A DNA stretch of 21,200 nucleotides. Origin: a virus. The stretch covers positions 1 through 21,200 of IMG/VR virus record IMGVR_UViG_3300010233_000325; one strand, 5' to 3'. Position numbers and translations under genes: made by a program. Positions 1-16,923 of the stretch are shown here, one piece after another. The stretch's first letter is position 1; the number at the start of each line of letters is the position of its first letter. The notes below the pieces were generated by a model that worked only from the letters and a program-made list of their open reading frames with translations, did not search any database and was not told where the DNA came from.

Positions 1-785
1 GCGTACTGATGGACAACGAAGCAGCCCCGATGGGCGACCGTAGCCTCTGCATCAATCCATTGATGCAGGCCGTTATCGTCGATGCCCTGAAGGGTCTGTT
101 CCAGTCCAGCCAGGCCATCTCCTCGCAGTACGAGAAGGGCAAGATGGGTACGGTCATCGGCAACGAATGGTACATGGATCAGAACGTTCGTCGGCATACC
201 TCTGGTGCGCTCGGCGGAACGCCTCTGATGAATGGTGCCACCGTTGACGGCGCGACCTCGCTGGTGACTGATGGTTGGACGCACAACGTCACGAACATCC
301 TGCTTCGCGGGGACATCGTGAGCGTTGCTTCGGTCAATCAGGTCAACCCGCAGAACCGTCAGTCGACTGGCGTAGCGCGTTACTTCGTTGTCACGGCGAA
401 TTGCTCGTCTGACAACTCCGGTAACGTCACTATCCCGGTCAACCCGTGCAGCGGCAACTATACTATCCAGTCCACCGGGCAGTATCAGAACGTCGATGCG
501 CTTCCGGCTGACAATGCGGCCATCACGGTCTTCAGCGCGGCCTCGACCGGTTCCGCTCAGGGCTTGCTGTTCGCCTCCGATGCCTTCACCTTTGCCTCTG
601 CCGACCTCGATGTACCGGGCGGCGTGGACATGGGCAAGCGGGTCTCGGACAAACAGTTGGGGATGAGCATCCGTGCCATCCGCGACTATGACATCAACCT
701 CGACCGATGGCCGTTGCGTTTGGACTTGCTCGGCGGATGGGCTACCATCTATCCCGAACTGGCCGTCAGAATCGCGGGGGCATAA
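1..785 (+). CDS. P22-type major coat protein, C-terminal part
   Basis: This would be the main shell protein of the icosahedral head. The reading frame is open to the left edge (codons from position 3), so the gene is cut and about 260 residues remain. Full P22 coat proteins are about 430 residues, so I estimate some 170 are missing upstream. Family cues are the segment reading APMGDRSLCINP near the start of the visible part and the ending RLDLLGGWATIYPELAVRI, both typical of the P22 coat (gp5) family as I know it. The gp4-like and gp10-like genes just downstream support the call. The ATG at position 9 is internal to the protein and is not the true start. The gene ends with TAA one base before the next ATG. 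The assignment is by recalled family pattern and synteny, not by a search. Confidence 0.85.
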   Translation, partial: VLMDNEAAPMGDRSLCINPLMQAVIVDALKGLFQSSQAISSQYEKGKMGTVIGNEWYMDQNVRRHTSGALGGTPLMNGATVDGATSLVTDGWTHNVTNILLRGDIVSVASVNQVNPQNRQSTGVARYFVVTANCSSDNSGNVTIPVNPCSGNYTIQSTGQYQNVDALPADNAAITVFSAASTGSAQGLLFASDAFTFASADLDVPGGVDMGKRVSDKQLGMSIRAIRDYDINLDRWPLRLDLLGGWATIYPELAVRIAGA

Positions 786-786
786 C

Positions 787-1380
787 ATGGCAATCACCGC
801 AACTACACTCTCGGCTGCCGTGGCTGTGGGCGACCAGGTTGTGAACGTGGCTTCGGCCACGGGCATCTCCGCGCCCGTTTCCACTACTGGGTCTGGATTC
901 ACCATCCTGAAGATTGATGATGAGATGTTCTTCGTCATCTCGGTCTCAGGGACGGTGGTGACAGTCCTTCGTGGTCAACAGGGTACCCAACAGGTATCCC
1001 ATTCGACCTCCACCCCTGTGCTGATTGGCTCGCCTTCGGACTTCTCGAACTTCGTTCCCGTCCAAGCTGCGTTCTCGGTGCAGACTCCGTATAACTTCTC
1101 CGCCATCGGACCTCCGATTGTCAGCGCGACCACCATCGCGCCGGTGAACGGGGCCATCCACCATGTCACAGGGACTACCGCGCTATCGGTCATCACCGTG
1201 CCTTCTGGTGCCGTTTCCGGCTCCAAAATCACGCTGATTTTCGATGGTTCGGGTTCCGGGTTGACATGGGGTTCCGGCGGGAACATCGCCGTCGCGGGAA
1301 CCGCCACCACCGCTGCCTCGTCCGTGGATTTCATCTACGACGCACCCAGCGCGAAGTGGATTCCCTCGCGGTTAGCGTAA
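787..1380 (+). CDS. Probable head decoration / capsid-associated protein
   Basis: The product is 197 residues, rich in Val, Ser, Thr, Ala and Gly with no long helix, so probably an all-beta structural protein. The first half (to about residue 80) contains a DDEMFFVISVSGTVV stretch followed by LRGQQGTQQVSHS. That pattern, RG-x-x-GT-x-x-x-x-H, is one I associate with small phage structural modules. The second half (about 115-197) has a repeated beta pattern ending FIYDAPSAKWIPS, similar to domains on phage fibres and head decorations. It starts one base after the coat stop, the usual place for a decoration or head-completion gene. The Shine-Dalgarno is weak (GGGGG at 776-780), so expression probably relies on coupling to the coat gene. 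Capsid decoration is inferred; a fibre anchored to the head is the main alternative. Confidence 0.6.
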   Translation: MAITATTLSAAVAVGDQVVNVASATGISAPVSTTGSGFTILKIDDEMFFVISVSGTVVTVLRGQQGTQQVSHSTSTPVLIGSPSDFSNFVPVQAAFSVQTPYNFSAIGPPIVSATTIAPVNGAIHHVTGTTALSVITVPSGAVSGSKITLIFDGSGSGLTWGSGGNIAVAGTATTAASSVDFIYDAPSAKWIPSRLA

Positions 1381-1430: not shown

Positions 1431-1661
1431 ATGTCCATCTATATCTGGAAGTACAAGGAAGGCCAGTCCAAGCTCTGCACCACTCAGGCCGACTTAGACA
1501 AATGCGCGGCATGGTTCAATAACCCACTCGACCTTCCTGAAGGTGAGGAAGTCGTCGTCGAGCCAGACCCTCAGCCAGTCCCAGAGCCAGTTGTAGAAGC
1601 TCCGGTAGAGGTTTCTGAGCCCGTGGTCGAAGATGTCCTTGAGCCTGAGAAAGCCAAATGA
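1431..1661 (+). CDS. Small acidic Pro/Glu/Val-rich protein
   Basis: The product is 76 residues. Residues 1-35 look folded (MSIYIWKYKEG..., with C16 and C25 and several aromatics). From about residue 36 the chain is a low-complexity acidic tail of repeated Pro, Glu, Val and Asp, probably disordered. The start is set by a strong Shine-Dalgarno (AAGGAGG, 1420-1426) four bases before the ATG. The last codons overlap the gp4-like gene by ATGA at 1658-1661. I do not recognise the family. Its place between decoration and gp4 suggests a small virion or assembly protein, but nothing in the sequence proves that. Confidence 0.65.
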   Translation: MSIYIWKYKEGQSKLCTTQADLDKCAAWFNNPLDLPEGEEVVVEPDPQPVPEPVVEAPVEVSEPVVEDVLEPEKAK

Positions 1662-2386
1662 CTGCCGAAGAACTCATAGAAAGCTCTCTACGCCTTATCG
1701 GGGCATTGGCTCCGGGCGAGACTCCATCCGGTTCTGAAGGAACAGACGCTTTGTTCGTCCTGAATCAGATGTTGGACTCATGGAACGCTGAGAGTCTTTC
1801 CATCTTCACCATCTCGCGTTCGGTCTTTGACTTCATCGCCAACCAGCAAGCCTATACCTATGGTGTAGGCGGCGATTTCAATGCCGCACGTCCGGCCAAG
1901 ATTGACCATTGTTCCGTACTGTATCTGTCGAACCCATCGCAGCCGCTTGAGCTTCCCCTGCAAATGCTTACGGATGAACAGTGGTCGCAGATTCCCGTCA
2001 AGGCGGTCTACTCCACCATCCCGCTTCAAGTCTGGGATGATGGTGGGTACCCTCTGCGTACCCTGAGCTTCTGGCCAATCCCATCAGCGGCCAACCAATT
2101 CTGTTCCTACGCATGGACGGCGTTGACTGAGTTCACCGACCTAGCGACAGACAATGACTATCCTCCGGGCTATGCCAAGGCCCTGCGCTACAACTTGGCT
2201 GTGGACTTGGCTCCGGAGTGGGGTGTGGAGCTTCCGCCAGTGGTCGCCGCACAGGCTGTATCGTCCAAGGCCATACTCAAGAGCATGAACATCGGGCCGA
2301 TAGACATCCGGTGCGACGGTGCTTTGGTCAACCCCAAGGGCGGATACTACAATTACAGGAGCGATACTTTTGGGAAACCAATCTAA
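1658..2386 (+). CDS. P22 gp4-like tail accessory factor
   Basis: In P22 this protein binds under the portal ring and plugs the head-tail junction after DNA packaging. The product is 242 residues. P22 gp4 is shorter (about 166), but relatives of this length occur. The N-terminal pattern, TAEELIESSLRLIGAL followed by a gap and LFVLNQMLDSWNAESL, is the characteristic opening of the family. The middle holds the Y-T-Y-G-x-G-G-D-F block (about 68-76) and the later SFWPIPSA and PPGYAKALRYNLAVDLAPEWG motifs (about 168-190), which I also associate with it. It overlaps the upstream gene by four bases and the gp10-like gene by one base (TAATG). The following gp10-like gene strongly supports the identity. 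Confidence 0.88.
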   Translation: MTAEELIESSLRLIGALAPGETPSGSEGTDALFVLNQMLDSWNAESLSIFTISRSVFDFIANQQAYTYGVGGDFNAARPAKIDHCSVLYLSNPSQPLELPLQMLTDEQWSQIPVKAVYSTIPLQVWDDGGYPLRTLSFWPIPSAANQFCSYAWTALTEFTDLATDNDYPPGYAKALRYNLAVDLAPEWGVELPPVVAAQAVSSKAILKSMNIGPIDIRCDGALVNPKGGYYNYRSDTFGKPI

Positions 2387-3840
2387 TGTCTAGATTCGGT
2401 ATTTGTGGTGGTTCCTATCAATCGCAGACCTTCTCAGCAGACGCGCAGATGTGCATGAATATGTACGTCGAGAAGGACGAATCGGGATTGGGCAAGTCCG
2501 ATATGCAGCTTGTTGACTGCCCCGGACTCTCGACCTTCATCACCCTTCCGCAAACCCCCGTTCGCGGGGAGATTGAGATAAATGGCAGAGCCTTCGCAGT
2601 CGCAGGCGCAAAGCTGTATGAGATAACTTCTGCGGGTGGTTCTACCGAGCTTGGCGATGTGGGCAACGATGGACTCCCCGCATCATTGAGTTCCAGCCAG
2701 ATTCAAGTCTTGGTTGCTTCGGCGGGACAATGCTATGTCTTCAATCTGACGACCAACACTTTCTCGGCGGTAGATACCGCCACCCTGACCAACGTTTCCG
2801 TGGTCGGGTATACGGACTCCTATTTCCTCGCTCTCATCAAGGACTCGAACCAGTTCCAATTCTCCGCGCTTCAGGATGCTACCTCTTGGGACTTGCTGGA
2901 TGTGGAGGAAATCTCAGTGTTCGCGGGCAACATCAACTCGATGGTGGTTGACCACCGCGAGATTGTGCTTCTGGGGAACCAGAAAACCGTTGTCTATTAT
3001 GACACTGGAGACTCGGACAATCCCTTTCTTCCCGTACCATCAGGAATCATGGAAGTCGGTTCAGGAGCGGTTTACTCAGCAGTACGCGCCGACAATTCCG
3101 TGTTCTGGCTTGGTCAAGATGAGCGCGGCTCAGGCATGGCGTTCAAGGCGCAGGGCTACACTCCGCAGCGGGTCTCGACCTTCGCCATCGAGTTTGCATG
3201 GCAGTCATACTCCACTACAACCGATTGCGTGTCCTATTCCTATCAGGAACGCGGACACACCTTTGTCGTCTTCCGCTTCCCGTCCGCCAACAAGACATGG
3301 GTGTACGACACCTCGAACTCGATATGGCATGAGCGTGGCTTTTGGCACAACTCATCCTTCACCGCCCATCGTTCCACATGCCATATGTATGCTTTCGGCA
3401 AGCACTTGGTAGGAGACTGGGATTCAGGGAAGATATTCAACATGAGTCCCACCTACAGCGACGACTTTGGCAACTCTTTGCGCCGCGTCCGCCGCGCGCC
3501 ATTTGTCGCATCAGAAGGGCGATATGTGACACTGCCATATCTTGAGGTCGAATGCGATACGGGAATCGGTCTGGTTTCCGGGCAAGGCTCTGACCCACTG
3601 TTGATGATGCGTATGTCGAAAGACAACGGCAAAACATGGTCGGATGAGCGCACGGTAAACATCGGCGATCTTGGGGATTATGGCAAGCGCGTGTTTTTCC
3701 GGAGACTGGGAAGATTCTGGGGTACGAAGGGATTGATTTTCGAGTTGTCATTCACCGACCCCATTCCCTTCAGAATCACCGATGCGTATGTTCCGCCGCC
3801 AGTCACAAGATTGGCCACGACTCTTAGGAGCCAAGCATGA
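2386..3840 (+). CDS. P22 gp10-like packaged-DNA stabilization / needle hub protein
   Basis: In P22, gp10 forms the hexameric hub below gp4 that carries the tail needle and receptor-binding spikes. The product is 484 residues, close to P22 gp10 (about 470). It shows a beta-propeller-like run of short strands. Family cues are FSADAQMCMNMYVEKDES near the start, the LVDCPGLSTF segment with RGEIEINGRAFAVAGAKLYEI after it, ALQDATSWDLLDV in the middle, and the VWVYDT/ W-H-E-R-G region (about 305-322). The C-terminal part (about 390-470) contains SKDNGKTWSDER, a signature of this family. The start is the ATG overlapping the upstream TAA by one base; longer upstream frames overlap the gp4-like gene and are shadows. 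The stop overlaps the next gene by ATGA. Confidence 0.88.
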   Translation: MSRFGICGGSYQSQTFSADAQMCMNMYVEKDESGLGKSDMQLVDCPGLSTFITLPQTPVRGEIEINGRAFAVAGAKLYEITSAGGSTELGDVGNDGLPASLSSSQIQVLVASAGQCYVFNLTTNTFSAVDTATLTNVSVVGYTDSYFLALIKDSNQFQFSALQDATSWDLLDVEEISVFAGNINSMVVDHREIVLLGNQKTVVYYDTGDSDNPFLPVPSGIMEVGSGAVYSAVRADNSVFWLGQDERGSGMAFKAQGYTPQRVSTFAIEFAWQSYSTTTDCVSYSYQERGHTFVVFRFPSANKTWVYDTSNSIWHERGFWHNSSFTAHRSTCHMYAFGKHLVGDWDSGKIFNMSPTYSDDFGNSLRRVRRAPFVASEGRYVTLPYLEVECDTGIGLVSGQGSDPLLMMRMSKDNGKTWSDERTVNIGDLGDYGKRVFFRRLGRFWGTKGLIFELSFTDPIPFRITDAYVPPPVTRLATTLRSQA

Positions 3841-4771: not shown

Positions 4772-6043
4772 ATGTCATTCTTGGGCGGAATATTCCCATC
4801 CAACACGAATTATGGCGGATACGGACTACCGGGTGTCGGGACTCCTACCACTGGTGGAACATCCACTGGCTCATCCACCACCTCATCCTCCTCCCCGTGG
4901 TGGCTTCCTCTTGTTGGATTGGGAATCAATGCCGGAACCTCCATCCTGTCTGGAGTGTTGGGAGCCAATGCTGCTGGTAATGCGGCTTCTACTCAGGCCA
5001 ATGCCGCGACTCAGGCCGCACAGCTTCAATATCAGGCTTCGCAGAACGCGCTTGGATTCGCCCAGAATGTTTACAACCAACAGCAAGGACAGGCGCAGCC
5101 GTGGATACAGGCGGGGCAAGGAGCGGTCACCAATCTAGCCTATTTACTTGGCATCCCGATGCAGCAGGCGGCTCAAGTAGCGCAACAGAACCCGCAGTTG
5201 GCCCAGCAGGCCAGCACGGTTGGTCAGTATGCAGGAGCGGGGAACAATCTTCCCGCTAATCTGTCCGGAGGAACAATTCCCAACGGCATGGGCGGGCCTG
5301 CCTATTCCGGAGGTATTTCACCAGAGGCTTCGGCGGCGAATCCCAGGCCGAATGAACACATTCTTCCAGACGCGGCTACAGGTACTTCTCCGGCTGCTTC
5401 TACCGCTACAAGCACCGTTCCAGTATCCGGGGGTTCCACCGTACCGCTTTCTGGACTGTCTGGTACATCCACCCCTACGGGAATCAATCCGGCTCTTGGG
5501 GCATTTGGTTCGCTCTCTACTCCGTGGACGCAGCAATTCAATGCGCCTACTGATGTCACGGAGCAGAACGATCCTGGCTATCAATTCCGGCTCGCGGAGG
5601 GACAGAAAGCTCTTGAGCGTTCAGCCGCCGCCAAAGGCGGACTGCTTTCAGGAGGCACAGCCAAAGCCCTTGACCGCTATGGTCAGGACTATGCTTCCGG
5701 GGAATATGGCAACGTCTACAACCGGGCATTGGGAGAGTATCAGCAGAATTACAACATCTTCCAGCAGAACCAGTCCAATCTCTACAACCGCCTTTCCGGT
5801 CTTGCAGGACTTGGACAAGTCTCCGCCGGACAACTCAACTCCGCTGGACAGAATTATTCCAACAATGCCGGGAATCTTCTGATTGGCGGAGCCAATGCCC
5901 AGGCCGCTGGATTGAACAATGCGGCATCGGCAAGAGCTTCGGGATACATTGGTGGAACCAATGCGACCACCGGAGCATTGTCCGGACTCGGTAATCTTGC
6001 GACTCTGGCATCCGTCTTGTACCCGCAGATAGCACCACACTAA
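4772..6043 (+). CDS. Probable internal virion / DNA ejection protein (gp7 slot)
   Basis: The product is 423 residues. Residues 1-42 are Gly/Ser/Thr-rich, then PWWLPLVGLGINAGTSILSG and Ala-rich helix form a hydrophobic segment (about 42-70) of the type used to insert into the host envelope. A Gln/Ala-rich helical region follows (AAGNAASTQANAATQAAQLQYQ). The C-terminal third (about 265-360) has E-Q-N-D-P-G-Y-Q-F-R-L-A-E-G-x-x-A-L-x-R-S-A-A-A-K-G and a run of Tyr/Gln/Asn helix, patterns I associate with podophage DNA-transfer proteins. It has no cysteine. It abuts the upstream stop with GAGG at 4763-4766. In P22 this slot holds gp7, one of three proteins ejected with the DNA to span the envelope. 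Confidence 0.72.
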   Translation: MSFLGGIFPSNTNYGGYGLPGVGTPTTGGTSTGSSTTSSSSPWWLPLVGLGINAGTSILSGVLGANAAGNAASTQANAATQAAQLQYQASQNALGFAQNVYNQQQGQAQPWIQAGQGAVTNLAYLLGIPMQQAAQVAQQNPQLAQQASTVGQYAGAGNNLPANLSGGTIPNGMGGPAYSGGISPEASAANPRPNEHILPDAATGTSPAASTATSTVPVSGGSTVPLSGLSGTSTPTGINPALGAFGSLSTPWTQQFNAPTDVTEQNDPGYQFRLAEGQKALERSAAAKGGLLSGGTAKALDRYGQDYASGEYGNVYNRALGEYQQNYNIFQQNQSNLYNRLSGLAGLGQVSAGQLNSAGQNYSNNAGNLLIGGANAQAAGLNNAASARASGYIGGTNATTGALSGLGNLATLASVLYPQIAPH

Positions 6044-6047
6044 ACCT

Positions 6048-7442
6048 ATGTCATCCATCCCGCTTCCCGCGCTGCATATCAATCCGCCCGCCGACCCGTC
6101 TGAGGGCTTGACCAAAGCCGTTCAACTGAAGTCCCTATTGCAGAGCCAGCAACTCCAGCAACAGGCGATGCAGGAGAACCAGCTTCAGATTGACCAGCAG
6201 AAACGCTCGCAAGCCGACCATCAGCTTGCCCAGAAAACGCTGGCGGACAATAACGGGGACATGGACAAGACCCTGAACCAGCTTCGGGGAAAGGTAGACC
6301 CGTCGTTTCAGGCACAGCTTGAGCAGGAACACGCGCTGACGTTACAGAGAGAATCAGTGAAGGATGCCAGAGACAGGGCGTTGGAGGAGAAGACGAATGG
6401 GGATTTGTTCTCCGTCGTTGACCAAGCCAAAGGGATGTCCGCGCAGGACTTTGAGAAGAACAAGCCGCTCATCGCGCAGAGGATTTCGGAGATAAACCCG
6501 AAGATACAGATGCCTCCCGATGCCAAGCAGTCTGACATGGACAATCTTCTTTTGGGCCTGAATGTCCAGAAATATTACCAGCAGAAGGCGAAGCAAAAGC
6601 AAGATGAACAGGCGGCGCAAGATGTCCATCAGAACATTCAATCGGAGATAGAGGCGCGGAAGAATAAGCCGGAAAATAAAGATGACCGCGCTATTTCCAT
6701 CATGGCGAAACCTGAGAAAGAATGGACTCCAGCGGAAGCCGCCTATATGAAGGGCTATCGCCAATATGTCAAGGAAACCAAAGTAGAGCCTGGAGTCCTT
6801 CGCATCGAGGCATTGGGAGAGACTCGCGGCCCCACCGTGTTTGACAATCAGGCCAATGCAACGGTTACGATGAATTGGAACGATTACAACCGACTGAATA
6901 AGCAATTTCCGGGCCGCTACACCGCTCCCCAGTTCACACCAGAATCCCAGATTCAGCAGGGGACAGGAAAAGCATTTGCTCCGGGCGGCAAGGGAAGCGA
7001 AGACATCCTCGCATTCAATACCGCCATCAAGCACGCGAATACTCTACAGAAAGCCGCAGATGCACTCGACAATGGAGACATTCGGCTGGCGAATAAAATT
7101 GGGAATGAGGTTGGGATTCAGTTTGGGTCTGACAAGGCCACCAACTTCAGGACGATTGCCGGGGTCTATACCCGCGAGGTCAATAAAGCCCTCACATCGA
7201 ACCACATCACCGACCAAGAGCTTGAGAAAATCGGTGGAACCATGCCGGACAATGCCAGTCCCGCGCAGATTAAGGGAAGTCTCAATGCCTACAAGTCATT
7301 GATGGCGGATAAGGCTGCGCTGAGACAGCAGCAGTTCGAGGCTGGCAGGCAGGGAAAGCCCAACTTTAATACCCCATCTGCTCAACCTTCCGGAAAAACC
7401 ATTAGATATAAGATTGTGAATGGACAATTGGTTCCCGAATAA
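6048..7442 (+). CDS. Probable internal virion / DNA ejection protein (gp20 slot)
   Basis: The product is 464 residues, almost entirely helical and charged, with a Gln-rich coiled-coil stretch at about 25-60 (LLQSQQLQQQAMQENQLQ, then QQKRSQADHQLAQK). The middle is rich in Lys, Glu and Gln. The C-terminal 50 residues turn Pro/Gln/Ser-rich. No cysteine is present and no enzymatic motif is visible. It starts five bases after the previous stop with no obvious Shine-Dalgarno, so coupling is likely. It ends with a one-base overlap (TAATG) with the next gene. Size, helicity and its middle place among three large helical proteins match the P22 gp20 slot. Sequence homology to gp20 itself cannot be claimed. 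Confidence 0.68.
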   Translation: MSSIPLPALHINPPADPSEGLTKAVQLKSLLQSQQLQQQAMQENQLQIDQQKRSQADHQLAQKTLADNNGDMDKTLNQLRGKVDPSFQAQLEQEHALTLQRESVKDARDRALEEKTNGDLFSVVDQAKGMSAQDFEKNKPLIAQRISEINPKIQMPPDAKQSDMDNLLLGLNVQKYYQQKAKQKQDEQAAQDVHQNIQSEIEARKNKPENKDDRAISIMAKPEKEWTPAEAAYMKGYRQYVKETKVEPGVLRIEALGETRGPTVFDNQANATVTMNWNDYNRLNKQFPGRYTAPQFTPESQIQQGTGKAFAPGGKGSEDILAFNTAIKHANTLQKAADALDNGDIRLANKIGNEVGIQFGSDKATNFRTIAGVYTREVNKALTSNHITDQELEKIGGTMPDNASPAQIKGSLNAYKSLMADKAALRQQQFEAGRQGKPNFNTPSAQPSGKTIRYKIVNGQLVPE

Positions 7443-9517
7443 TGCCTGAAATAACCGTAACCGATGAACAGGGTGTGCAGCATATCTTCCCCGATGGCTC
7501 GACCCCGGAGATGATTGCGAAGGCGTTGAACGTCAAGCCACCCACCCTGCAGAAGAATCAATCTCCCGACATAGGTGTAGCGATGGGCGCAGAGCCGGGA
7601 GAGCTTGCTACTGGATTTAGCCTCCAGGATATAAAGAACGGGTCTTTTGGAATGGGAGCTACCACGTTCGGCTTGAGGCAGGCGGCCCTCGGTGGTCTCG
7701 ACGTTGCCAAAGGAATGGGTTCGCAATTAGCTGAAAATCTGACCGATCCAGTGATGTCTCTTTACCATGCGGGAAAGTCAGTGTATGACCTTGGCAAGCA
7801 AGCTATCGAAGTGCCGGGAGCCATTAAGGACTTGTATCAATCCGACAACGCTCTTGGAGCATTGGCATTGGCGGCTCCCCGCGCCGGTGGACAGGCAGCG
7901 GCAACGGTGGTCGCGCAAGAGGCGGGAGCGAGGATACCCGGAGCAACGGCGAAGGTAGTACAAAAACTGCCTGCGGAATATGCTGCCAAAGTCGTTCCAG
8001 AATCAGCTCTGTCTACCCGCCAACTTGGGGAAATAGCAGCGAAAGATGTTGAGACCAAGGGAAGCAATCTCTCCGCCGCACTCCAGACCGGAGGCAATCC
8101 AAAGGGAAACGTTTTGGTGCATGAGGACATTGGCCGTCCCATATTAGATGACATTCGAGAAGCGGCAGTCAAAGAGGGAGTCACCGCCGATGACTTCAAA
8201 GGCCGACAGGGGTATGATAAAGGCCAACAGCTTACAAAATCTGTCAGAAAGAAGTTTGACGACGCTTATGATTCTCTGGTTGAGCCTGTTGCTGGGAATA
8301 ATGCGGTCGGAGCGGCGAAGACGGCTGCAAAGCAGTTCCTTGGTGAGATGTTGCCGGATGCCAAGCTCATGGACAAGATTACCGGAGGGAACTCGGCAGC
8401 TAAAGTCCAAGCACTAGCCGATGAAATAGCTGACCAGAAAACGATTGGTGACCTCGACAACTTCCGCAAAGACGGTCTGAATCGTGCCGACAAATATGTA
8501 AGCAAAGGCCCCGCCGCACAATATCAATCTCCGGTCATGCAAGAAGCCATCCACCGAGCCGGTAATGCGGTGCGAAAGGCCGTCTATTCCGAGATGGAGC
8601 AGGCTTATGGTGGGCAAATCCCTGAAGAAGTATTGCGGGACTTGCAGAAACGGCATGGAGCAGCCATCCAAGCCGACAATATGATGTCTGAGACACGGCA
8701 GGCATTGAGCAAGATTGCGAGTGAGGAATCCTCTCCCGCAGGGCCTTGGCAGAGATTCAAGGGAGTCGGCTATCGGGGAACGATGGGGAGCAAGGCTCAT
8801 GCTGCCGCCGGACTGGTTGAGAAGCTCCTGCCGCCTTCGGAAATAGAACTATTCAATACCCGAATGCAACGAGTCTTGAAAGACATTTCCCCTGAGACTT
8901 CCGGCTATCAGCCTCCGGTTCCATCATCGGTGGGCGGAGAGTATCTGTCTCCTGAAACACAGAATCCCCGGTCTCCATCGCAAATGAATCTTTCCGAGAC
9001 CGCACCGGGAACCTATGTCGGAATCTCAAAACCACGCCAACTTCCAGAATCAACCACTCCGGTTGGCAAGACGCAGTTGATGAAACTCAATGTGCAAGAT
9101 GTTTTGAAGCAATCAATGGAACGAGTGATAGCAGAGAAAGAAGCCATTAGAGCCAGGGTCGGTGGAGATATGGCTCCATCCGGACAGCCTCCGCGTGGCG
9201 GTGGTGAGGCATTGATACCTCCGAGCATGTTTGGCGGGGATATGGGACAACAGGCTGCTATGAAAATGGGCCGTGTTCCTCCGGAGGGGAAACTTCGAGC
9301 GGAAGTCCCCGCTGGAACAATACCTAAATTACCACCCAATATGCCTAATCGTCCCGCGCTGCCTGCGGAAATGTTCAATCAGAAACTTACAACTCTTGAG
9401 AAAATAAAGGCTGCGGAAATGGCCAGACGTGAAGCGATAAAAGCTATGGAATATCGCTCCAAGATAAATAGAAATCCTAAAACTGGACGAATGGAACGAA
9501 TACAGGAGGGAAAATGA
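7442..9517 (+). CDS. Large probable internal virion / DNA ejection protein (gp16 slot)
   Basis: The product is 691 residues. The opening (MPEITVTDEQGVQHIFPDGS, then TPEMIAKAL) is a small module I recognise from the N-termini of many phage internal or structural proteins. An Ala/Gly-rich segment (about 85-190) could be membrane-active, followed by a long helical core (190-470). The C-terminal 220 residues are Pro/Gly/Ser-rich with basic residues and probably disordered, ending in a Lys/Arg-rich tail. There is no cysteine and no lytic-transglycosylase motif visible. P22 gp16, the third ejection protein, is about 610 residues and sits in this slot. It overlaps its neighbours by one and four bases. 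The ejection role is inferred from synteny and composition. Confidence 0.7.
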   Translation: MPEITVTDEQGVQHIFPDGSTPEMIAKALNVKPPTLQKNQSPDIGVAMGAEPGELATGFSLQDIKNGSFGMGATTFGLRQAALGGLDVAKGMGSQLAENLTDPVMSLYHAGKSVYDLGKQAIEVPGAIKDLYQSDNALGALALAAPRAGGQAAATVVAQEAGARIPGATAKVVQKLPAEYAAKVVPESALSTRQLGEIAAKDVETKGSNLSAALQTGGNPKGNVLVHEDIGRPILDDIREAAVKEGVTADDFKGRQGYDKGQQLTKSVRKKFDDAYDSLVEPVAGNNAVGAAKTAAKQFLGEMLPDAKLMDKITGGNSAAKVQALADEIADQKTIGDLDNFRKDGLNRADKYVSKGPAAQYQSPVMQEAIHRAGNAVRKAVYSEMEQAYGGQIPEEVLRDLQKRHGAAIQADNMMSETRQALSKIASEESSPAGPWQRFKGVGYRGTMGSKAHAAAGLVEKLLPPSEIELFNTRMQRVLKDISPETSGYQPPVPSSVGGEYLSPETQNPRSPSQMNLSETAPGTYVGISKPRQLPESTTPVGKTQLMKLNVQDVLKQSMERVIAEKEAIRARVGGDMAPSGQPPRGGGEALIPPSMFGGDMGQQAAMKMGRVPPEGKLRAEVPAGTIPKLPPNMPNRPALPAEMFNQKLTTLEKIKAAEMARREAIKAMEYRSKINRNPKTGRMERIQEGK

Positions 9518-11277
9518 AATCTAGGACGATGGAACGATTCATTCTCGCCGCTATCATCATTTGGATAGTAATGGCGTTGGCATATTCAGCCCATGCCCAA
9601 GTCCCGGTCACGGTCATGCCTGTGCCGAAAGCGCAGTTCTTCGACAACTCCGGAGTCCCGCTGGCCAATGGGTGTCTGGTCACCTATGCGGCTGGTTCAA
9701 CGACACCGCTGGCTACCTATACCGATTACACGGGGACGGTTCAGAATGCCACTACCATCGACCTTGACTCAGCGGGCAGGGCGAATGTATGGCTGGCAGG
9801 CTCGTCATACAAGTTCGTACTCAAGTCATCTGGCGGCAGTCATTGTGCTTCCGGCTCTACCATCTGGACAGTAGACGGAGTGGACGGGGTATATCTGGAC
9901 TTCTGCGGCCTCTCCGGATGCACGTTCACCGGGGATGTGCTTGGGCCGTCCTTTGGGCAGGTGCGATATACCGACCAATTCGCGTCCATCACATCGGCCT
10001 ATTCGGATGCTGGAACGACTGGCGGAGTCATCATCAACTCCGGGTCATCTGGAAACCCTCCGACAAACTCCAATGCGCTATCGGTGCTGGATTTCAGGCC
10101 ATCTTCAGGTATGTTCTACAGCGGCAAGTACAACGATGTGTCTGACCTGCGCGGGAACATGTGCTTTGGCCTATCTTGTCCGAACACTTGGAACGCATCG
10201 CATTCTGGGAACGTTGGGATGGGAGTGGGTCTGTTCAATGCCCTGACGACTGCCGACAACAATACGGGCATGGGCGACCATGTGTTGCAGCTTGCCACTA
10301 GCGGAACATCGAATGCCGCGTTTGGCAGGGCATCGCTCTCGCATCTGACCACGGGAAACTACAACTCCGCGCTCGGACACGCTTCTGGATTCTCAAGCAC
10401 CACAGGCGGGTTCAACATCTTTATCGGTGACGAGGCGGGATACACTGCGACTCCCGCGAACGCCAATACCACTGACAGCTATACCATCGCTATTGGCTTT
10501 GAGGCGGGGCGCGGTGATGCGACCCCAAGAGACAACTGGGCGGCGATTGGCAAGGGCGCACTAGCGACTTGTTCCAACTGCATGGTCTTGGGTTCGGTAG
10601 GCTCCAATGCCATCAAGGTAGGACTTGGCAATCAGGCTCCCGCCTATACCTTCCACCAGACGGCGAACATCGACAAGTCAACCGTATCGCTCACCGATAT
10701 GTCGTTCTGGGGAACGAATGACGGCTCGGCTCCATTCGGCTTAAAGCTCTCCATCTCTGGGCAGTCAGTAGAGAACACGCGGAGAATAGAGTTTGCCACC
10801 ACCGAACCGGGAAATGCCAACGGCGGAGGACTTGTCCTTCAGCCCGACGCTGGATGGGTGGACATTGGTTCCCGTTCGACTTGTGCCACCGTGTTGTGCA
10901 TCACTGGAACCGCCACGGTAAGCTCTCAAGTCACCGCCGCGACATTCGGAACAGCGACCAACTGCGCTGCGGTAGGTACTGGGGCAAATCCTTCATTGGT
11001 AGCTTGTGCGGCTGCAGCCTCAGGGTCATTCTCATGCGCCACGGCTGCAACCGGGGGGACATGTGTTGTCTCCACTACCGCAGTCACGGCCAACAGCGTG
11101 ATTCTGATTACGGAGGATGACAGCTTAGGGACGAAGCTGAGTGTCACTTGCAACACGGGAACCACGGTATTGCCAGTCCACATGATTGCGGCGCGTTCGG
11201 CAGGAGTGAGTTTCACCATCAATCTTGGTACGGTGACGACCAATCCCGCCTGCTTCAACTATCTGATAGTGAATTGA
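9514..11277 (+). CDS. Signal-peptide-bearing tail fibre with YadA-head-like repeats
   Basis: The product is 587 residues. Residues 1-29 form a Sec signal peptide: basic start, a long hydrophobic core (FILAAIIIWIVMALAY) and an A-H-A|Q cleavage site. Residues 36-123 are a recognised phage fibre N-terminal module (MPVPKAQFFDNSGVPLANG, LDSAGRANVWLAG, W-T-V-D-G-V-D-G). Residues 232-350 hold imperfect 14-17-residue repeats like those of YadA-type adhesin heads. The C-terminal 120 residues are a separate beta, Cys-rich domain. I count 16 cysteines, all after the signal peptide. The start has AGGAGGG at 9504-9510 and overlaps the upstream gene by ATGA; an in-frame ATG at 9529 would give a shorter signal peptide. 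It sits in the P22 tailspike slot, so receptor binding is likely. Its export signal is odd for a virion protein. Confidence 0.78.
   Translation: MKSRTMERFILAAIIIWIVMALAYSAHAQVPVTVMPVPKAQFFDNSGVPLANGCLVTYAAGSTTPLATYTDYTGTVQNATTIDLDSAGRANVWLAGSSYKFVLKSSGGSHCASGSTIWTVDGVDGVYLDFCGLSGCTFTGDVLGPSFGQVRYTDQFASITSAYSDAGTTGGVIINSGSSGNPPTNSNALSVLDFRPSSGMFYSGKYNDVSDLRGNMCFGLSCPNTWNASHSGNVGMGVGLFNALTTADNNTGMGDHVLQLATSGTSNAAFGRASLSHLTTGNYNSALGHASGFSSTTGGFNIFIGDEAGYTATPANANTTDSYTIAIGFEAGRGDATPRDNWAAIGKGALATCSNCMVLGSVGSNAIKVGLGNQAPAYTFHQTANIDKSTVSLTDMSFWGTNDGSAPFGLKLSISGQSVENTRRIEFATTEPGNANGGGLVLQPDAGWVDIGSRSTCATVLCITGTATVSSQVTAATFGTATNCAAVGTGANPSLVACAAAASGSFSCATAATGGTCVVSTTAVTANSVILITEDDSLGTKLSVTCNTGTTVLPVHMIAARSAGVSFTINLGTVTTNPACFNYLIVN
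10207..10563 (+). repeat. YadA-head-like repeats within the tail fibre gene
   Basis: Protein residues 232-350 of the fibre repeat a pattern with small residues and Gly at fixed places: NVGMGVGLFNAL, NTGMGDHVLQL, NAAFGRASLSHL, NSALGHASGFS, NIFIGDEAGY, then TIAIGFEAG and AAIGKGAL. Trimeric autotransporter heads use units of this form (N-x-x-x-x-G-x-x-A/S) to build a left-handed trimeric beta roll. The repeats are divergent at DNA level, so they are old and not a recent tandem duplication. Confidence 0.65.
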
Positions 11278-11284
11278 GGAGACC

Positions 11285-13225
11285 ATGAAGAAACTCATTC
11301 TGTTCCTGCTCTTTAGCATCGCGGCATGGGCAGACTCATCCACGGGCAATATCACCGCTTCAGGTACGACCTGCGGCACGACCAATGCCTGCATCGTCCT
11401 GCATTCATACTCGACCATCGGCAGCGCATCCATTACCGTGACGGGTACATGGAGCGCGACCTTGCAGTTCGAGACTAGCGCGGACGGGTCTACTTGGGCA
11501 GCGGCCACGGGATATTCCGTTCCCACGGGCTCGGCGGCTCAATCCATCACCGCCAATGGGGTCTACCAGTTCAATATGGCGAGCCTGACCTACATCCGTG
11601 TCAGGGGTTCGGCATATACCAGCGGGACGGCGGCCATCCTCATCTCTGGTTCGTCCTCTGACTTTGCTACTGCTATCGCCAATTCCATCATCACCGCGAC
11701 GGTGGCGACTCTGCCGGATGCCTCTGGGTCGACTGGATGGGTGAGGATTGTGACGGATGCACTCACTACCGCCGACTGTACCGTTGGTGGCGGCTCAGCC
11801 TATTCGCTCTGCGTGTCCAACGGCTCGGCATGGGTCAATCCCGGCGGCGGCGGAAGCACCTCTGCGGGTGGTTCAAACGGGCAATTGCAATACAACAACT
11901 CCAATGCCTTTGGCGGCATCACTAATGCCACTTCGGATGGAACCAATGTGTTGAGCATGACCATTTCCGGAACGCTGACTTCCGCTACCATCAACAACAG
12001 CGGGACAATCACGGCTGGAGTGCTTACATCATCCACGGTTCATCCTGCTACCGCCGGAGCCGTACGATTGGCGAATGGCGATGCGATTGACTGGAGGAAC
12101 GCGGCCAATAGCGCGAACATCCCGCTATCGGTGGACAGCAATAATACGCTGGTCATCGGTTCCGGTTCAGGGAATGTACAATCCACATCGTTCTCCCTGT
12201 TGAACGCCGCAGCTCCGGGGTTGACGGCCAATACGTTCACCCTGATTCCTCCAACAACCATCACTACTGCATATTGCTGGTCAGTTCCAGCGGGAGAGAA
12301 CGCCTCTGCCGGACTTCTACATCTTGCTGCTGCATCGGCTCATTGTTCGGCTGGTACTGTCAGCGCAGTCGTTGAATCCGATATTTCATTGTCAGACAAT
12401 ACGACTGGGAACGCATCCACCACGGCTCACGGATTCGTCCTTAAGGGAGACAACAACACCGCGCATTTCCTCCGTGGAGATCAAACCTGGGCTACCCCTC
12501 CCGGCACCACCTATGATTGCACCCTCATCACCGTGTTCTGTGCGGTAGAGGAAATGCCGGGTGGCAACACGACTTCGGGAGCCATCGGCTCTCTGGGATG
12601 GAACAATAGCGCAATCTCATCTGCCGCCGCACTAAGCTATATTGTCTCTACCTTCTCCAACCCCGGAGAGCTTCAATTCACCACCAACACCAGCGCGGGT
12701 AACGGAAGTTATTTTAACCTCGCTGGTTCTGGTTCCGGGTTCTCGCTTGTCGGCAATATCGGCGGCTCGACCAACTGGACAGAGACTTGGATATTCAAAG
12801 TCACCAGCGACGGCACGAAAGAGCGTATCCGCATCGGGTTTGGTGGGACTTCTTCCGTGGTGGAACCCACGGATGGCATCTGGGTGCGCTATGACAAGAA
12901 CGCCACTTATGCTGATACGACATGGCATCTGTGCATCCGGCAGGCTTCGACCAACTCTTGTCAAGCCACTACCAAGACCTTCGATGCCAACTGGCACAAG
13001 GTCGTGATACGCAGCACTTCGTCGGGAGTAATCGGAATCACTTGGGACAGCGATGCCGAACTGACTTGGTGTACGGCTGGGTCGGGATGCACCATCAACT
13101 CCGCAACCTTCCCATCTGTCAGCCTCACCCCAGTAGCCGACATCTGTAATGATGGCACTACCGCCGATGTCACGGTCATCGACTACTTCTCTCTGTTCAT
13201 CACCGGGTTGACGAGGATTCCATAA
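11285..13225 (+). CDS. Signal-peptide-bearing tail fibre / adhesin
   Basis: The product is 646 residues. Residues 1-16 are a short, classic signal peptide (MKKLILFLLFSIAAWA|D). Residues 17-125 form a beta domain with FETSADGSTWAAATGY, a module seen in phage fibres. About 145-180 carries D-C-T-V-G-G-G then C-x-x-x-G-x-x-W, followed by a Gly-rich hinge. The middle is a Ser/Thr/Asn-rich fibre shaft including FLRGDQTWATPPG, a typical phage fibre junction. The C-terminal 220 residues resemble a lectin-like jelly-roll head (GIWVRYDKNATYADTTWHLC). I count 13 cysteines in the mature part. The Shine-Dalgarno is GAGGAG at 11276-11281. It overlaps the next gene by one base. Receptor or surface binding is probable; it is the second of four exported-looking fibre genes. 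Confidence 0.75.
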   Translation: MKKLILFLLFSIAAWADSSTGNITASGTTCGTTNACIVLHSYSTIGSASITVTGTWSATLQFETSADGSTWAAATGYSVPTGSAAQSITANGVYQFNMASLTYIRVRGSAYTSGTAAILISGSSSDFATAIANSIITATVATLPDASGSTGWVRIVTDALTTADCTVGGGSAYSLCVSNGSAWVNPGGGGSTSAGGSNGQLQYNNSNAFGGITNATSDGTNVLSMTISGTLTSATINNSGTITAGVLTSSTVHPATAGAVRLANGDAIDWRNAANSANIPLSVDSNNTLVIGSGSGNVQSTSFSLLNAAAPGLTANTFTLIPPTTITTAYCWSVPAGENASAGLLHLAAASAHCSAGTVSAVVESDISLSDNTTGNASTTAHGFVLKGDNNTAHFLRGDQTWATPPGTTYDCTLITVFCAVEEMPGGNTTSGAIGSLGWNNSAISSAAALSYIVSTFSNPGELQFTTNTSAGNGSYFNLAGSGSGFSLVGNIGGSTNWTETWIFKVTSDGTKERIRIGFGGTSSVVEPTDGIWVRYDKNATYADTTWHLCIRQASTNSCQATTKTFDANWHKVVIRSTSSGVIGITWDSDAELTWCTAGSGCTINSATFPSVSLTPVADICNDGTTADVTVIDYFSLFITGLTRIP

Positions 13226-14430
13226 TGAGATGGCTTGTGTTGCTGTTCGCCTGCACATTGGCGACAGCACAGAACTTCCCGTATAAGGTTGTGAAGGATT
13301 CAGACAACCTTTCGACCACGGGGATCATCGTGTGGCACATCGAGGATTCTACGGGGTCAAACATCACCTCTCCGTCCACATCAAAGTTCCCGGTTGGTGC
13401 TGTGGGATTATGGGTGGCTTATTCACAAGAAGCACTCGCTGGGGCGGTGAACGCCGCTACTCAGCCCTCGACAGGTACTCAGCCGGGGACGGGTGGAACG
13501 GTGATGTGGAGCTACATCGTCGGCAAGCCCCTGACCTTTGCCCCGCCCTTGCCGACCGCCAGCGTTCTCGGAGGAGCGAAGTCATTGACCTGTACCGGGA
13601 CGGACAAGTTCTCAGCACTCGGAACCGATGGCGCGTTCGTGTGTTCGGCAGACGCGGGAGGCGGCGCGGTATCAAGCGTGTTTGGGCGGACTGGTGCTGT
13701 GACCGCCGCGTCGAACGACTATTCTTTCGCGCAGCTATCATCGATTCCGACGACCGTTTCTGGATACGGCATCACCGATGCGGTAACCACGGCGCGGACG
13801 GTATCCACGACATCGCCTCTCGGCGGGGGGGGAGCGTTGTCGGGAAATCTGACGCTTACTTGCACGACCTGTCTGACTGCACTTCCAAACCCATCTTCCT
13901 CGACCCTCGGCGGGGTCAAATCTCTGACCTGTGGCGCGGGAACACACATCCAGACCATCGGAACAGACGGTCTTCCGGTATGCAGTTCCGACTCAGGCGG
14001 CGGCGCAGGCAGCAAACTGTTCGTGACCTCTGCTTATACGAACGCCACGACCAATTTCACCAACGTGTCTGGCTTGTCATTCGCGGTATCGGCCTCGACC
14101 AATTACTACGTCGAGTGCCACATCACATGGCAGGGTTCAGCCACGACCACAGGCCCCAAGTTCCAGTGGACAGGCCCAGCATCGCCGACTGCGGTAGCGG
14201 CTAATGCGACCATCGCCACGACCGTTACGACCCTCCGGCTGGTATCGGCGGTGGCTTTCTCATCCTCAATGGCGCAGTCAGGAACCATCACGGCGACGAC
14301 AAACTTTCCTGCGATCGTGACGGTCGGAGTCGCCAATGGCGCGAACGCCGGGACAGTCCAACTGCAAGCGGCGGCGAACGGAAGCGGAACACTCACAATC
14401 CAACCAGGGAGTTTTTGTGCGGCTCAATAA
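13225..14430 (+). CDS. Signal-peptide-bearing fibre protein with duplicated Cys module
   Basis: The product is 401 residues. Residues 1-16 form a signal peptide (MRWLVLLFACTLATAQ) with an A-T-A|Q site. Residues 17-105 are a beta domain. Two copies of a module of about 40 residues follow (109-148 and 220-260), each with L-G-G-x-K-S-L-T-C, then G-T-D-G-x-x-x-C and a D/S-rich, Gly-rich end. Between them lies VFGRTGAVTAASNDYSF with a later SGYGITDA, classic phage tail fibre shaft motifs. The C-terminal domain (about 262-401) is a jelly-roll-like beta fold. The mature part has eight cysteines. It starts with TAATG overlap to the upstream gene. Its end overlaps the next gene by 14 bases. A fibre or fibre-accessory role is likely; the attachment partner is unknown. 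Confidence 0.72.
   Translation: MRWLVLLFACTLATAQNFPYKVVKDSDNLSTTGIIVWHIEDSTGSNITSPSTSKFPVGAVGLWVAYSQEALAGAVNAATQPSTGTQPGTGGTVMWSYIVGKPLTFAPPLPTASVLGGAKSLTCTGTDKFSALGTDGAFVCSADAGGGAVSSVFGRTGAVTAASNDYSFAQLSSIPTTVSGYGITDAVTTARTVSTTSPLGGGGALSGNLTLTCTTCLTALPNPSSSTLGGVKSLTCGAGTHIQTIGTDGLPVCSSDSGGGAGSKLFVTSAYTNATTNFTNVSGLSFAVSASTNYYVECHITWQGSATTTGPKFQWTGPASPTAVAANATIATTVTTLRLVSAVAFSSSMAQSGTITATTNFPAIVTVGVANGANAGTVQLQAAANGSGTLTIQPGSFCAAQ
13549..13668 (+). repeat. Cys-module repeat, copy 1
   Basis: First copy of a module of about 40 residues in the fibre protein (residues 109-148), with two cysteines 17 residues apart, G-T-D-G between them and a trailing A-D-A-G-G-G. Copy 2 lies at 13882-14004. Similarity is clear in protein and weaker in DNA. 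Confidence 0.65.
13882..14004 (+). repeat. Cys-module repeat, copy 2
   Basis: Second copy (residues 220-260) of the module at 13549-13668, sharing L-G-G-x-K-S-L-T-C, the I/L-G-T-D-G core, a second cysteine and the S-D-S-G-G-G end. The pair of cysteines in each copy could form a disulfide in an oxidising compartment. Confidence 0.65.
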
Positions 14431-16333
14431 TACAGTGAATAAATTGCTGCTCATTCTCATGTTGTCCCTTCCCGCCACGGCGGCGACGAAATACATATCC
14501 ACGCTCGGCAGCAATTCCAACGGGGGAACCAGTTGTAACGATGCCTATCTGACCTTTGCCAAAATCCAGGCCAATACCTCCGGAGGGGACACATGGAAGC
14601 TATGCGATGGCGGCATTACCGTGACCTATTCGGTGGCCGCAGGCACAGGAATCATCGATTGCGCAGCCACGGCCAACGTCCTTTCCGGATGTCCGCCCAG
14701 CGGGTCGGTGGGAAACTACACTCTAGTCCAAGCGCAACACTGTGGCGGATACGTCTATATCACATCGAGTGATGCGGCCTACTCATCCACCAACCTAAGA
14801 CTCAGCACGGCAGCAGCGGCAAGAAACTATGTGCATCTTGATTGTCTGGAGTTTCATAAAGGCCAAGATCAGATAGTCAATGGCGACCACATCTGGATAA
14901 GCAATTGCGGCTTCGGTTCGCAAAGCAACAGCGTGAGCGCGGTATTCGGATTCGGTTCTACCACTACCTCGGTGACCAACTTCCTCGTTCAAGACTCATG
15001 GTTCTGGGGCAGCGAACGGGCGATGATCACAACCTATCGCTCGAACACTGGGGTATGGAGAAGGATAGCCCTGTTCCAGGGCGGTTGTAATGGAGACGGC
15101 ACAGGATCGGCGTGTAACTCTGGCGGGAACTCGCTTCTGGTAAGCACGGTCTACAACTCCGACCACATCAGCCTTCAGAACATGTTGAGCATTGATGCCA
15201 CGCGGGGGACGAACGGAAGGAATGGTGCAGCCGACTTCCAGACCGCGTTCCACAATAACTTCCCGGCGAATGCAGGACTGAACGAATGGCTTGGGACATT
15301 GAGCATCAACAGCAAACTAGACCTCGCATTGATGGAGGCGGATTCCCCAACGGGAGCGGGAACCGATTATGCCCCGTTCTGGAAGGTGGAGAACATGGGA
15401 TTGTTCACCAACGACAATTCCACGCAGGCTGGATTCAGCGCGCTCATCAATGGAACCCCATCGGCCAATGAGACTTACGACTTCCAGAAAATCACCGTAT
15501 ACCGGGGAGCGGACAATACGCTTGATCTGTTCGGAATCAACTCCGGCATGAGCGGTAAAAAGACAGCATTGGGCGACATCAATACTTACGGAGTAGGGCG
15601 ATACGGGTTGTCGTCTCCCGACCAGGCCGATTGCGTCAACACCTATGGAGCGGCTCACAACTACAACCTCACCACCCCGACCAATCACACTGAGACCAAC
15701 CCCAGCGGAACGCTGCTCTATCCGCCAGTATTCCCCACTGGGTCTTTCCTTGATGCGGCCTGTGGCAAGAAGGGGGCTGACAACCGATTCCGCTATGGAG
15801 TGAATGATAGCTTCTACGGGGACGCTAACTTCGACACCATCACCGCGACTTCGGTATGGCCGTGGCCGAATGAGGGCGAGATAAACACCTCCGTTTGCGC
15901 CGACCTTCCAACGACTCCCTATTGTCTCAGTGGATACACCCTGACAACGTATGTCTATTCATACATGGGGAATCCGCCATCTCCGTCATGCGCCATCACG
16001 GCTCCGGCCAATGGAGCCACGGTATCGGGAGCATCCGTAACCATTTCAGGTACAGCGACCAATGGTGCGGTCGGGGGAACCCTCAACACCCAAGTCAACA
16101 TAAACGGCTCATCTCTGGGGACTGTTGTGACTGGCGGAAGCTGGACAAAATCATGGGACACTACCACTGGGGCATATCCTGATGGCGGCTATACCATATC
16201 CGCGACCACGGTGGATGATGCGCAGGTGGTGGCGAATTGCTCAGGCTCGGTGAACGTCACCGTCCACAACGCGGCGGCGGATACCAGCGTAAAGTTTGTG
16301 GGAGCCAAGGTCACGGGGGGTAAAATCAAGTGA
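14417..16333 (+). CDS. Exported beta-helix depolymerase-like protein with C-terminal Ig-like domain
   Basis: The product is 638 residues, with a predicted GTG start at 14417 preceded by AGGGAG at 14406-14411. The frame continues upstream to an ATG at 14336, but that adds a charged stretch in front of an ideal signal peptide (LLLILMLSLPATAA|T), so the GTG is preferred. Residues 25-200 read like the opening of a parallel beta-helix (KYISTLGSNSNGG, YVHLDCLEFHKG, DHIWISNCGFGS), the fold of pectate lyases and many phage depolymerases. About 200-500 continues with beta-helix-like turns. About 523-618 is an Ig-like domain (CAITAPANGATVSGASVTIS, ending GYTISATTVDDAQ), as found in exported bacterial carbohydrate enzymes. 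Fifteen cysteines occur in the mature part. No catalytic residues can be named. Polysaccharide binding or cleavage is inferred from fold. Confidence 0.7.
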   Translation: MRLNNTVNKLLLILMLSLPATAATKYISTLGSNSNGGTSCNDAYLTFAKIQANTSGGDTWKLCDGGITVTYSVAAGTGIIDCAATANVLSGCPPSGSVGNYTLVQAQHCGGYVYITSSDAAYSSTNLRLSTAAAARNYVHLDCLEFHKGQDQIVNGDHIWISNCGFGSQSNSVSAVFGFGSTTTSVTNFLVQDSWFWGSERAMITTYRSNTGVWRRIALFQGGCNGDGTGSACNSGGNSLLVSTVYNSDHISLQNMLSIDATRGTNGRNGAADFQTAFHNNFPANAGLNEWLGTLSINSKLDLALMEADSPTGAGTDYAPFWKVENMGLFTNDNSTQAGFSALINGTPSANETYDFQKITVYRGADNTLDLFGINSGMSGKKTALGDINTYGVGRYGLSSPDQADCVNTYGAAHNYNLTTPTNHTETNPSGTLLYPPVFPTGSFLDAACGKKGADNRFRYGVNDSFYGDANFDTITATSVWPWPNEGEINTSVCADLPTTPYCLSGYTLTTYVYSYMGNPPSPSCAITAPANGATVSGASVTISGTATNGAVGGTLNTQVNINGSSLGTVVTGGSWTKSWDTTTGAYPDGGYTISATTVDDAQVVANCSGSVNVTVHNAAADTSVKFVGAKVTGGKIK

Positions 16334-16417: not shown

Positions 16418-16675
16418 ATGAACTTACCCGATATTGACTATGGAAAATTGGCGCACAGGCTTTCGAGTGTGGGGTTCTGGGCGCAAGTCTATCTGCAATT
16501 CGTGGGCGGATGCTCGCTTGTAGCCAGAGCCTTGACTCCGCTGGAGGAATGGGCGCATGTCGAGGCTCCAGGGTTCTTCGTGCCGCTGCACAAGGTAATG
16601 GAGTTGCTCAGGAAGTATGCCTCGCTTGACTCCCGGCCAAATCTTCCCGGCCTGCGGGCGGAGCCTCCCAAGTGA
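16418..16675 (+). CDS. Hypothetical protein in the lysis-type cassette
   Basis: The product is 85 residues. GAGG at 16408-16411 lies six bases before the ATG. The chain looks helical: an amphipathic N-terminal half (IDYGKLAHRLSSVGFWAQVY), a mildly hydrophobic segment (LQFVGGCSLVARAL), a second helix around VPLHKVMELLRKYASL and a Pro-rich basic tail. There is no clear transmembrane span and no recognised domain. It is coupled by GTGA to the coiled-coil membrane protein downstream and lies between two membrane-protein genes. A lysis-accessory role is possible from context only. Confidence 0.6.
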   Translation: MNLPDIDYGKLAHRLSSVGFWAQVYLQFVGGCSLVARALTPLEEWAHVEAPGFFVPLHKVMELLRKYASLDSRPNLPGLRAEPPK

Positions 16676-16923
16676 CCCCCGACCCTGTTCTGGCGAAGCT
16701 AGAGGAGTTGCGCTCCGACATTAGCATCCTCTCGGTCAAGCTCTTTGGCGAGGAATCAGGCGAGAACCCCAAAGGCCGACTGCCCCTGCTAGAGTCAGAA
16801 GTCAAATCGGTAAGGGAACAATGCGACAAGCATGAGAACACGAAACACTTTGTCCTCGGAGCCGTGCTGCTCAACATCGGCTCCGCTGGCCTTTGGCTGA
16901 AGTCCCACCTCGGCATCAAATGA
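16672..16923 (+). CDS. Coiled-coil plus C-terminal membrane span protein, XhlA-like holin partner
   Basis: The product is 83 residues with a GTG start overlapping the upstream TGA; GGAG at 16661-16664 supports it. Residues 5-55 are a charged, heptad-like helix (LAKLEELRSDISILSVKL, then LLESEVKSVREQCDKHE), and 59-77 are a hydrophobic span (HFVLGAVLLNIGSAGLWL) with a short basic end. This N-terminal coiled coil and C-terminal span is the architecture of XhlA-type proteins, which work with holins and endolysins in lysis. The next gene (DUF5675) overlaps by ATGA, consistent with a holin-then-lysis-effector order. The family call is by architecture and position, not by a match. Confidence 0.6.
   Translation: MTPDPVLAKLEELRSDISILSVKLFGEESGENPKGRLPLLESEVKSVREQCDKHENTKHFVLGAVLLNIGSAGLWLKSHLGIK

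Follow-up and report, generated by a model that had tools for sequence, protein, structure and literature searches.

The gene sequences analysed here suggest that a family of short-tailed viruses of soil Acidobacteria provides its receptor-binding tail fibres with the export tags of the host and with paired cysteines, and that these fibres may reach their folded state beyond the cytoplasm and be added to the particle only at lysis. Our analysis starts from the window, i.e. the whole stretch of 21,200 nucleotides of DNA that was studied, which belongs to a 21.7-kb viral fragment (IMG/VR record IMGVR_UViG_3300010233_000325) and carries the virion genes of a short-tailed phage of the P22 type as one module, in a single orientation.

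In the course of events that we propose, the fibres or tailspikes would carry cleavable Sec signal peptides in the style of the host, pass the inner membrane and shed these signals, so that folding and disulfide formation would take place in the periplasm; the capsids, portals, adaptors and ejection proteins would remain in the cytoplasm. At lysis, the mature fibres, with their head-binding domain intact, would meet fibreless virions, and the docking of the fibres on the tail would be the last assembly step. We consider Sec export, periplasmic oxidation and attachment to fibreless virions at lysis to be the best explanation of our findings, and a likely one. The export of the fibres is well supported by the sequences, whereas signal cleavage, disulfides, periplasmic folding and docking after lysis are inferred, with the late docking being suggested by the identity of the domain that follows the first signal.

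Organisation of the window

All of the genes described in this section are located on the + strand. The gene of the major capsid protein (9..785; phrog_283), partial at the window edge, is followed by a member of a post-capsid virion-protein family (781..1380), which has neither a signal peptide nor a cysteine, by a gp4-like tail adaptor (1658..2386; phrog_12985, phrog_637) and by a homologue of gp10, the head-closure protein Hc3 of P22-type tails (2389..3840), which we have used for the phylogenetic tree; the last two are also without a signal peptide. Immediately 5' of the fibre genes are located three ejection-slot genes (4772..9517), none of which encodes a signal peptide or a cysteine: the first (4772..6043) corresponds to phrog_598, "DNA ejection", and the other two (6048..7442 and 7442..9517) are assigned by position only. 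The area 3' of the four fibre genes contains small genes and a metallophosphoesterase gene. Among the ORFs of the window we have seen no signal-less fibre gene that could serve instead of these four. A scan of the window for promoters and terminators has returned fewer sites than the shuffled sequences.

Fibre gene 1 (9514..11277) begins with a predicted signal peptide (aa 1-28, SAHA|Q), and its mature part, from position 9598, starts with a head-binding domain (approximately 9598-9900) that contains Cys26 and Cys83 (domain numbering) and precedes the fibre body; its C-terminus is K1-lyase_C-like, with a score below the Pfam cut-off. In fibre gene 2 (11285..13225; signal peptide aa 1-16, AAWA|D), the mature part consists of a recurrent N-terminal domain with a cysteine pair, whose homologues in related phages are likewise signal-bearing, and of fibre-like repeats. 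Fibre gene 3 (13225..14430; signal peptide aa 1-15, LATA|Q) is also composed of fibre repeats. Fibre gene 4 (14417..16333; signal peptide aa 1-22, PATA|A) most likely starts at the GTG at position 14417 rather than at the ATG at 14336; the GTG has the motif AGGGAG upstream and creates a 14-nt overlap with gene 3. The body of gene 4 ends in a C-terminal Big_7 Ig domain, and no close relatives of this gene have been found in viral contigs.

The mature fibres 1-4 contain 16, 13, 8 and 15 cysteines, respectively, against none in the ejection-slot proteins. No docking domain has been recognised in fibres 2-4, and a PDB sequence search with the whole of genes 1 and 4 has produced no match. We make no claim for the beta-helix look of gene 4, as its single-sequence AlphaFold2 model (pLDDT 32) is unusable.

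Signal peptides of the fibre genes

The preliminary description of this DNA had reported four consecutive fibre-type genes with Sec signal peptides; all of these ORFs exist at the positions given, and all four score positive with our signal finder, a home-made, untrained heuristic that looks for a positive n-region, an uncharged hydrophobic h-region and small residues at positions -3 and -1, and considers alternative starts. The scores of genes 1-4 are 16.6, 13.5, 11.7 and 12.4, with predicted cleavage at YSAHA|QVPV, AAWA|DSST, LATA|QNFP and PATA|ATKY, and none of the gp4-like, gp10 and ejection-slot genes of the window has been flagged. When each whole protein was shuffled in 2000 trials, a threshold score of at least 10 was reached by 17, 12, 19 and 7 shuffles, respectively (0.35-0.95%); with rates below 1% per gene, the chance of four positives in a row is negligible. 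Of the 597 ORFs with homology to core virion genes in the complete set of loci, no more than 3 score positive, each of them a homologue of an ejection protein with a hydrophobic N-terminus.

The 43 distinct signals of the family fit the Sec/SPase I pattern, by construction of the finder, with alanine at position -1 in 34 of them and glutamine at position +1 in 36; some are at least 30 residues long. Neither a lipobox (cysteine at +1) nor a twin-arginine motif occurs in any of the 43, and we have therefore rejected the lipoprotein (SPase II) and Tat readings. The calls of the finder are supported independently by the homology, cysteine and host data that are presented below.

The domain that follows the first signal

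Over approximately 100 residues after its signal, fibre 1 matches the tailspike head-binding domain in HMM comparisons, with cyanophage Pam1 (PDB ID:7eeq, E = 1e-11) as well as with the tail spike of Pan3 (PDB ID:9vyg, E = 2e-10). The structure predicted for the domain by AlphaFold2 (pLDDT 83) agrees with this assignment: its best seven PDB matches in Foldseek are all chains of the Pan3, Pam1, P22 and Sf6 tail machines, with E values of 4e-5 for Pan3, 1e-4 for Pam1, 3e-3 for the P22 tailspike head-binding domain and 2e-2 for the Sf6 tail-machine entry, where the matched chain of 619 residues is presumably the tailspike. Because of these sequence and fold matches, mature fibre 1, once cleaved, would begin with a virion-docking domain; its gene also occupies the tailspike slot, right after the ejection genes of the gp4/gp10 module. 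The conservation of the columns of the domain is alike in the signal-bearing and the signal-less classes (Spearman rho 0.77), so no loss of docking constraint is seen in the exported form.

Distribution of the signals among related phages

In all eight of the annotated phages that we have examined, mostly phages of Proteobacteria, the domain starts within a few residues of the initial methionine and there is no signal. When viral contigs were scanned with the domain, 80 loci were obtained, which split cleanly into those where the domain follows a signal peptide and those where it follows the initial methionine; two loci (L129 and L169, ...ALILLALPAFG|QVPV) were missed by the finder and have been counted as signal-bearing by eye. 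The homology between signal-bearing and signal-less relatives begins exactly at the predicted cleavage site.

In the gp10 tree, one group (SH-aLRT 99) consists of 34 gp10s, the window included, all 34 of them from signal-bearing phages, and the distribution of the signal label requires only 3 changes, compared with 18 when the labels are shuffled; outside this group, L107 and the distant L209 are also signal-bearing. With regard to the N-termini of homologues from related phages, which the preliminary description had proposed for comparison, the signal is present throughout this gp10 clade and absent in the phages of Proteobacteria and in most other phyla. No cultivated phage of the clade has been found in the phage collection that was searched, where all gp10 matches are below 60% identity.

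The tandem arrangement, which had been put forward as an undescribed oddity, is not unique to the window: related phages commonly have such genes in tandem, and in 23 of 38 loci we have counted two to four consecutive signal-bearing ORFs, headed by the gene of the head-binding domain, with many of the runs truncated where the locus ends. Close relatives retain the domain while their signals are exchanged: a comparison of 44 pairs that are similar in the domain, near-duplicates among them, gives a median identity of 73% in the domain and 36.5% in the signal, and in the pair L110/L111 the corresponding values are 88% and 19%.

Paired cysteines in the exported domains

If the fibres are exported to an oxidising compartment, paired cysteines are to be expected. 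After clustering of the head-binding domains at 80% identity, 33 of the 37 signal-bearing domains contain exactly two cysteines and the other four contain none, while the 36 signal-less domains contain no cysteine in 28 cases, one in seven and two in a single case; the association of two cysteines with the signal is strong (Fisher p = 3.6e-15), with its independence overstated by the relatedness of the rows. The number of cysteines is thus even (0 or 2) in every signal-bearing domain, as is the case for disulfide-bonded periplasmic proteins. The pairs occur in seven combinations of positions, none of which is found in a signal-less domain, which argues for several separate gains. In whole fibres, there are 1.87 cysteines per 100 residues in the signal-bearing class and 0.56 in the signal-less class. 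The cysteine pattern follows the predicted export, and the formation of the disulfides themselves would be its probable consequence.

The preliminary description had attributed the signals to selection rather than accident, and our comparison bears this out: the signals are fixed in a deep clade, have been kept despite their own turnover and are tied to paired cysteines.

A second family with signals

The virion-protein family that is encoded after the capsid gene occurs in both forms: the members in the window, L013 and L006 are signal-less, and those in L003, L016, L019, L020, L046, L053 and L061 are signal-bearing, where the signal sits directly before the homologous part (...Q..LTQTTLTA). 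The signal-bearing members contain 3-5 cysteines, compared with 0-2 in the others. In L056 and L061, the C-terminal module of the post-capsid protein is homologous to residues 88-386 of mature fibre 3 of the window, and for this reason the family is probably a head fibre or decoration. Taken over the clade, it appears rather probable that surface-exposed virion proteins, i.e. the fibres and, in several members, the post-capsid head protein, are built in the periplasm with disulfides and that the virion is finished outside the cytoplasm, in a split-compartment assembly.

The host

The closest relatives of the window phage with a known host infect Acidobacteriota, and because of its place in the gp10 clade the window phage probably has a host of the same phylum. 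Five of the six credible matches in Acidobacteriota genomes have a signal directly before the domain. Among named genome records with the domain, all three from Acidobacteriota (L099, L101 and L107, the last within a 446-kb contig of a Solibacteraceae MAG) are signal-bearing, and all eight from other groups (Burkholderia, Paraburkholderia, a Bacteroidetes MAG, a Bathyarchaeota MAG contig, Bdellovibrionaceae, Planctomycetota, Ramlibacter and Pseudoxanthomonas) are without a signal.

Genomes were scanned for the domain with a five-row alignment. In a sample of 396 Acidobacteriota genomes, two more, G285 and G245, are signal-bearing, with three tandem signal-bearing genes adjoining ejection-like genes on the single 6.4-Mb contig of G245; a weaker match in the phylum (L196) is without a signal, and another match in the sample (L197) has been discarded as spurious. 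The Burkholderia phylum, with 399 genomes scanned, has given nine matches, of which one is signal-bearing (L201/L209). This locus, from genome G774, lies outside Acidobacteriota and looks isolated, because its nearest homologues among 199 scanned genomes of its order (L260/L202 and L261/L204) are without a signal.

Glutamine is located at position +1 in 65% of the phage signals (55/84), in 34% of the signals of G245 (14/41) and in none of the 13 signals of the Burkholderia sample; the phage signals thus appear to be of the host's own style.

Other readings of the exported fibres

The exported fibres might never become parts of the virion, acting instead as free adhesins, depolymerases or blockers that condition the surface, clear the capsule or stop superinfection. 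Signal peptides and cysteines predict export only, several tandem genes would suit a secreted cocktail, and the Big_7 Ig domain of gene 4 resembles Ig domains of larger acidobacterial proteins. This is the main rival of the proposed route. Against this, the head-binding domain of fibre 1 is conserved as in signal-less tailspikes, the genes occupy the tailspike slot with no other fibre gene seen to serve the virion, and the post-capsid family has acquired signals too; we regard this reading as rather unlikely. Free secreted fibres that kept the domain would present the same sequence picture. Three results also speak against the proposed route: fibres 2-4 show no recognised docking domain, four signal-bearing head-binding domains are free of cysteines, and the weaker Acidobacteriota match L196 is signal-less.

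Alternatively, the fibres might be kept at or under the inner membrane, with virions completed there before lysis, or be divided in a mixed pool between virion and surface. Export itself is compatible with this, and the signals of at least 30 residues could anchor temporarily, but SPase I-type sites are present in all 43 distinct signals (the finder requires one) and no way is known for tailed virions to pass from the cytoplasm to the periplasm ahead of lysis, making such completion a still less probable course.

Among the options that the preliminary description had listed, the assembly of fibres on virions after lysis gives the best fit, as an intact docking domain for the virion stands at the start of the exported protein; a decoy or a conditioning of the surface appears less probable. 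The option of hydrophobic N-termini that serve as virion anchors fits poorly with the SPase I-type sites: uncleaved N-termini, inserted for example into the tail or the target membrane, are very improbable, since homology begins exactly at the predicted cleavage site, the identities of domain and signal differ as expected for exchangeable export signals, and the association with cysteines would be left unexplained. An artefact or chance, i.e. wrong starts or functionless hydrophobic N-termini, is scarcely credible: the finder is home-made and the start of gene 4 needed revision, but the shuffle rates, the rarity of positives among core ORFs, the clade-wide conservation and the cysteine association all contradict it.

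Comparison with known systems and implications

The tailspikes of P22, Sf6, Pam1 and Pan3 resemble fibre 1 in the slot after the ejection genes, in the accompanying gp4-like and gp10/Hc3 genes, and in the head-binding domain, by both HMM and fold. The annotated relatives that we have examined have their methionine at the domain, no signal and rarely paired cysteines, whereas fibre 1 has a Sec signal before the domain and two cysteines inside it. Because the signal peptide is present in all four genes of the window and throughout the clade, these fibres appear to be a variant of the P22-type tailspike rather than plain examples of it. The P22 tailspike is the last component to join finished heads and can be added in vitro; docking as a last step thus has a precedent.

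The coat proteins of filamentous phages, which are parts of the virion, also have cleavable Sec signals and disulfides, but these phages are extruded as they assemble at the membrane; the window phage, in contrast, is tailed and has a capsid that is cytoplasmic. Tailed phages use Sec for lysis proteins, as in Lys44 of fOg44 and the SAR endolysins (PMC6116005), which are Sec-routed like the window fibres, but are lysis enzymes rather than receptor-binding virion proteins. The head spikes or head fibres of RcGTA, head-attached surface fibres that bind host polysaccharide, are comparable to the post-capsid family, but have another fold and belong to another particle, and the available portion of their description mentions no signal peptide (PMC7296036).

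We have found no published description of signal-bearing tailspikes or fibres in a search of mostly open-access literature, without bioRxiv preprints, and novelty is to that extent provisional: the component parts are already known, and the Sec route for tailed-phage fibres is provisionally new. By the textbook, tailed phages assemble in the cytoplasm. If the proposed route is true, genuine receptor-binding proteins may be overlooked by annotation pipelines in which fibre genes with a signal are classed as host or non-virion genes, the combination of a signal peptide with a head-binding domain would be a metagenome marker for Acidobacteriota-type hosts, and an uncultured group of soil phages would offer fibres that can be tested. 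Disulfide-stabilised fibres would become possible, and it would be shown that a virion can be assembled partly in one compartment and partly in another, with completion at lysis.

Fibre modules and signal-bearing genes

The C-terminal 300 residues of fibre 3 of the window (13531-14430) share homology (E about 1e-40) with the gene that follows the capsid gene in other phages, with matches at L056:6812-7984 and L061:7144-8160, two related phage loci; modules therefore move between a head-slot gene and a tail-slot gene. In two further related phage loci, an insertion that separates the head genes from gp10, the homologue of the head-closure protein Hc3, consists of several signal-bearing ORFs: five additional ones in L019 (4478-9805) and four in L020 (3789-9997), on top of those in the tail-fibre slot, which brings the total of signal-bearing genes in L019 to seven.

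Outside the Acidobacteriota, two signal-bearing fibre genes (12303-13430 and 16869-18242) are located in L209, a P22-like prophage region of the Burkholderia-phylum genome G774; since the relatives of L209 within the same order are without signals, its signals may be a separate gain.

Small genes of the window

Immediately 3' of the fibre genes, two mutually overlapping small ORFs of 85 and 83 aa (16418-16923) are possible candidates for holin-type lysis genes; a hydrophobic stretch is located at the C-terminus of the second. On the minus strand, opposite to the virion module, two small genes carry Sec-type N-termini, AAWG↓QKK (19833-20198, 5 Cys in the ORF) and VCQA↓QEF (20195-20827, 9 Cys), and are possibly exported accessory genes.

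Residue at the +1 position

Phage and host signal peptides from loci L212-L231, L232-L248 and the phage loci were compared at the residue directly after the cleavage site (+1). This residue is Gln in 55 of the 84 signals of these phages, in 14/41 signals of the Acidobacteriota genome G245 and in none of the 13 signals of a Burkholderia sample; +1 Gln may be usable as a host marker.
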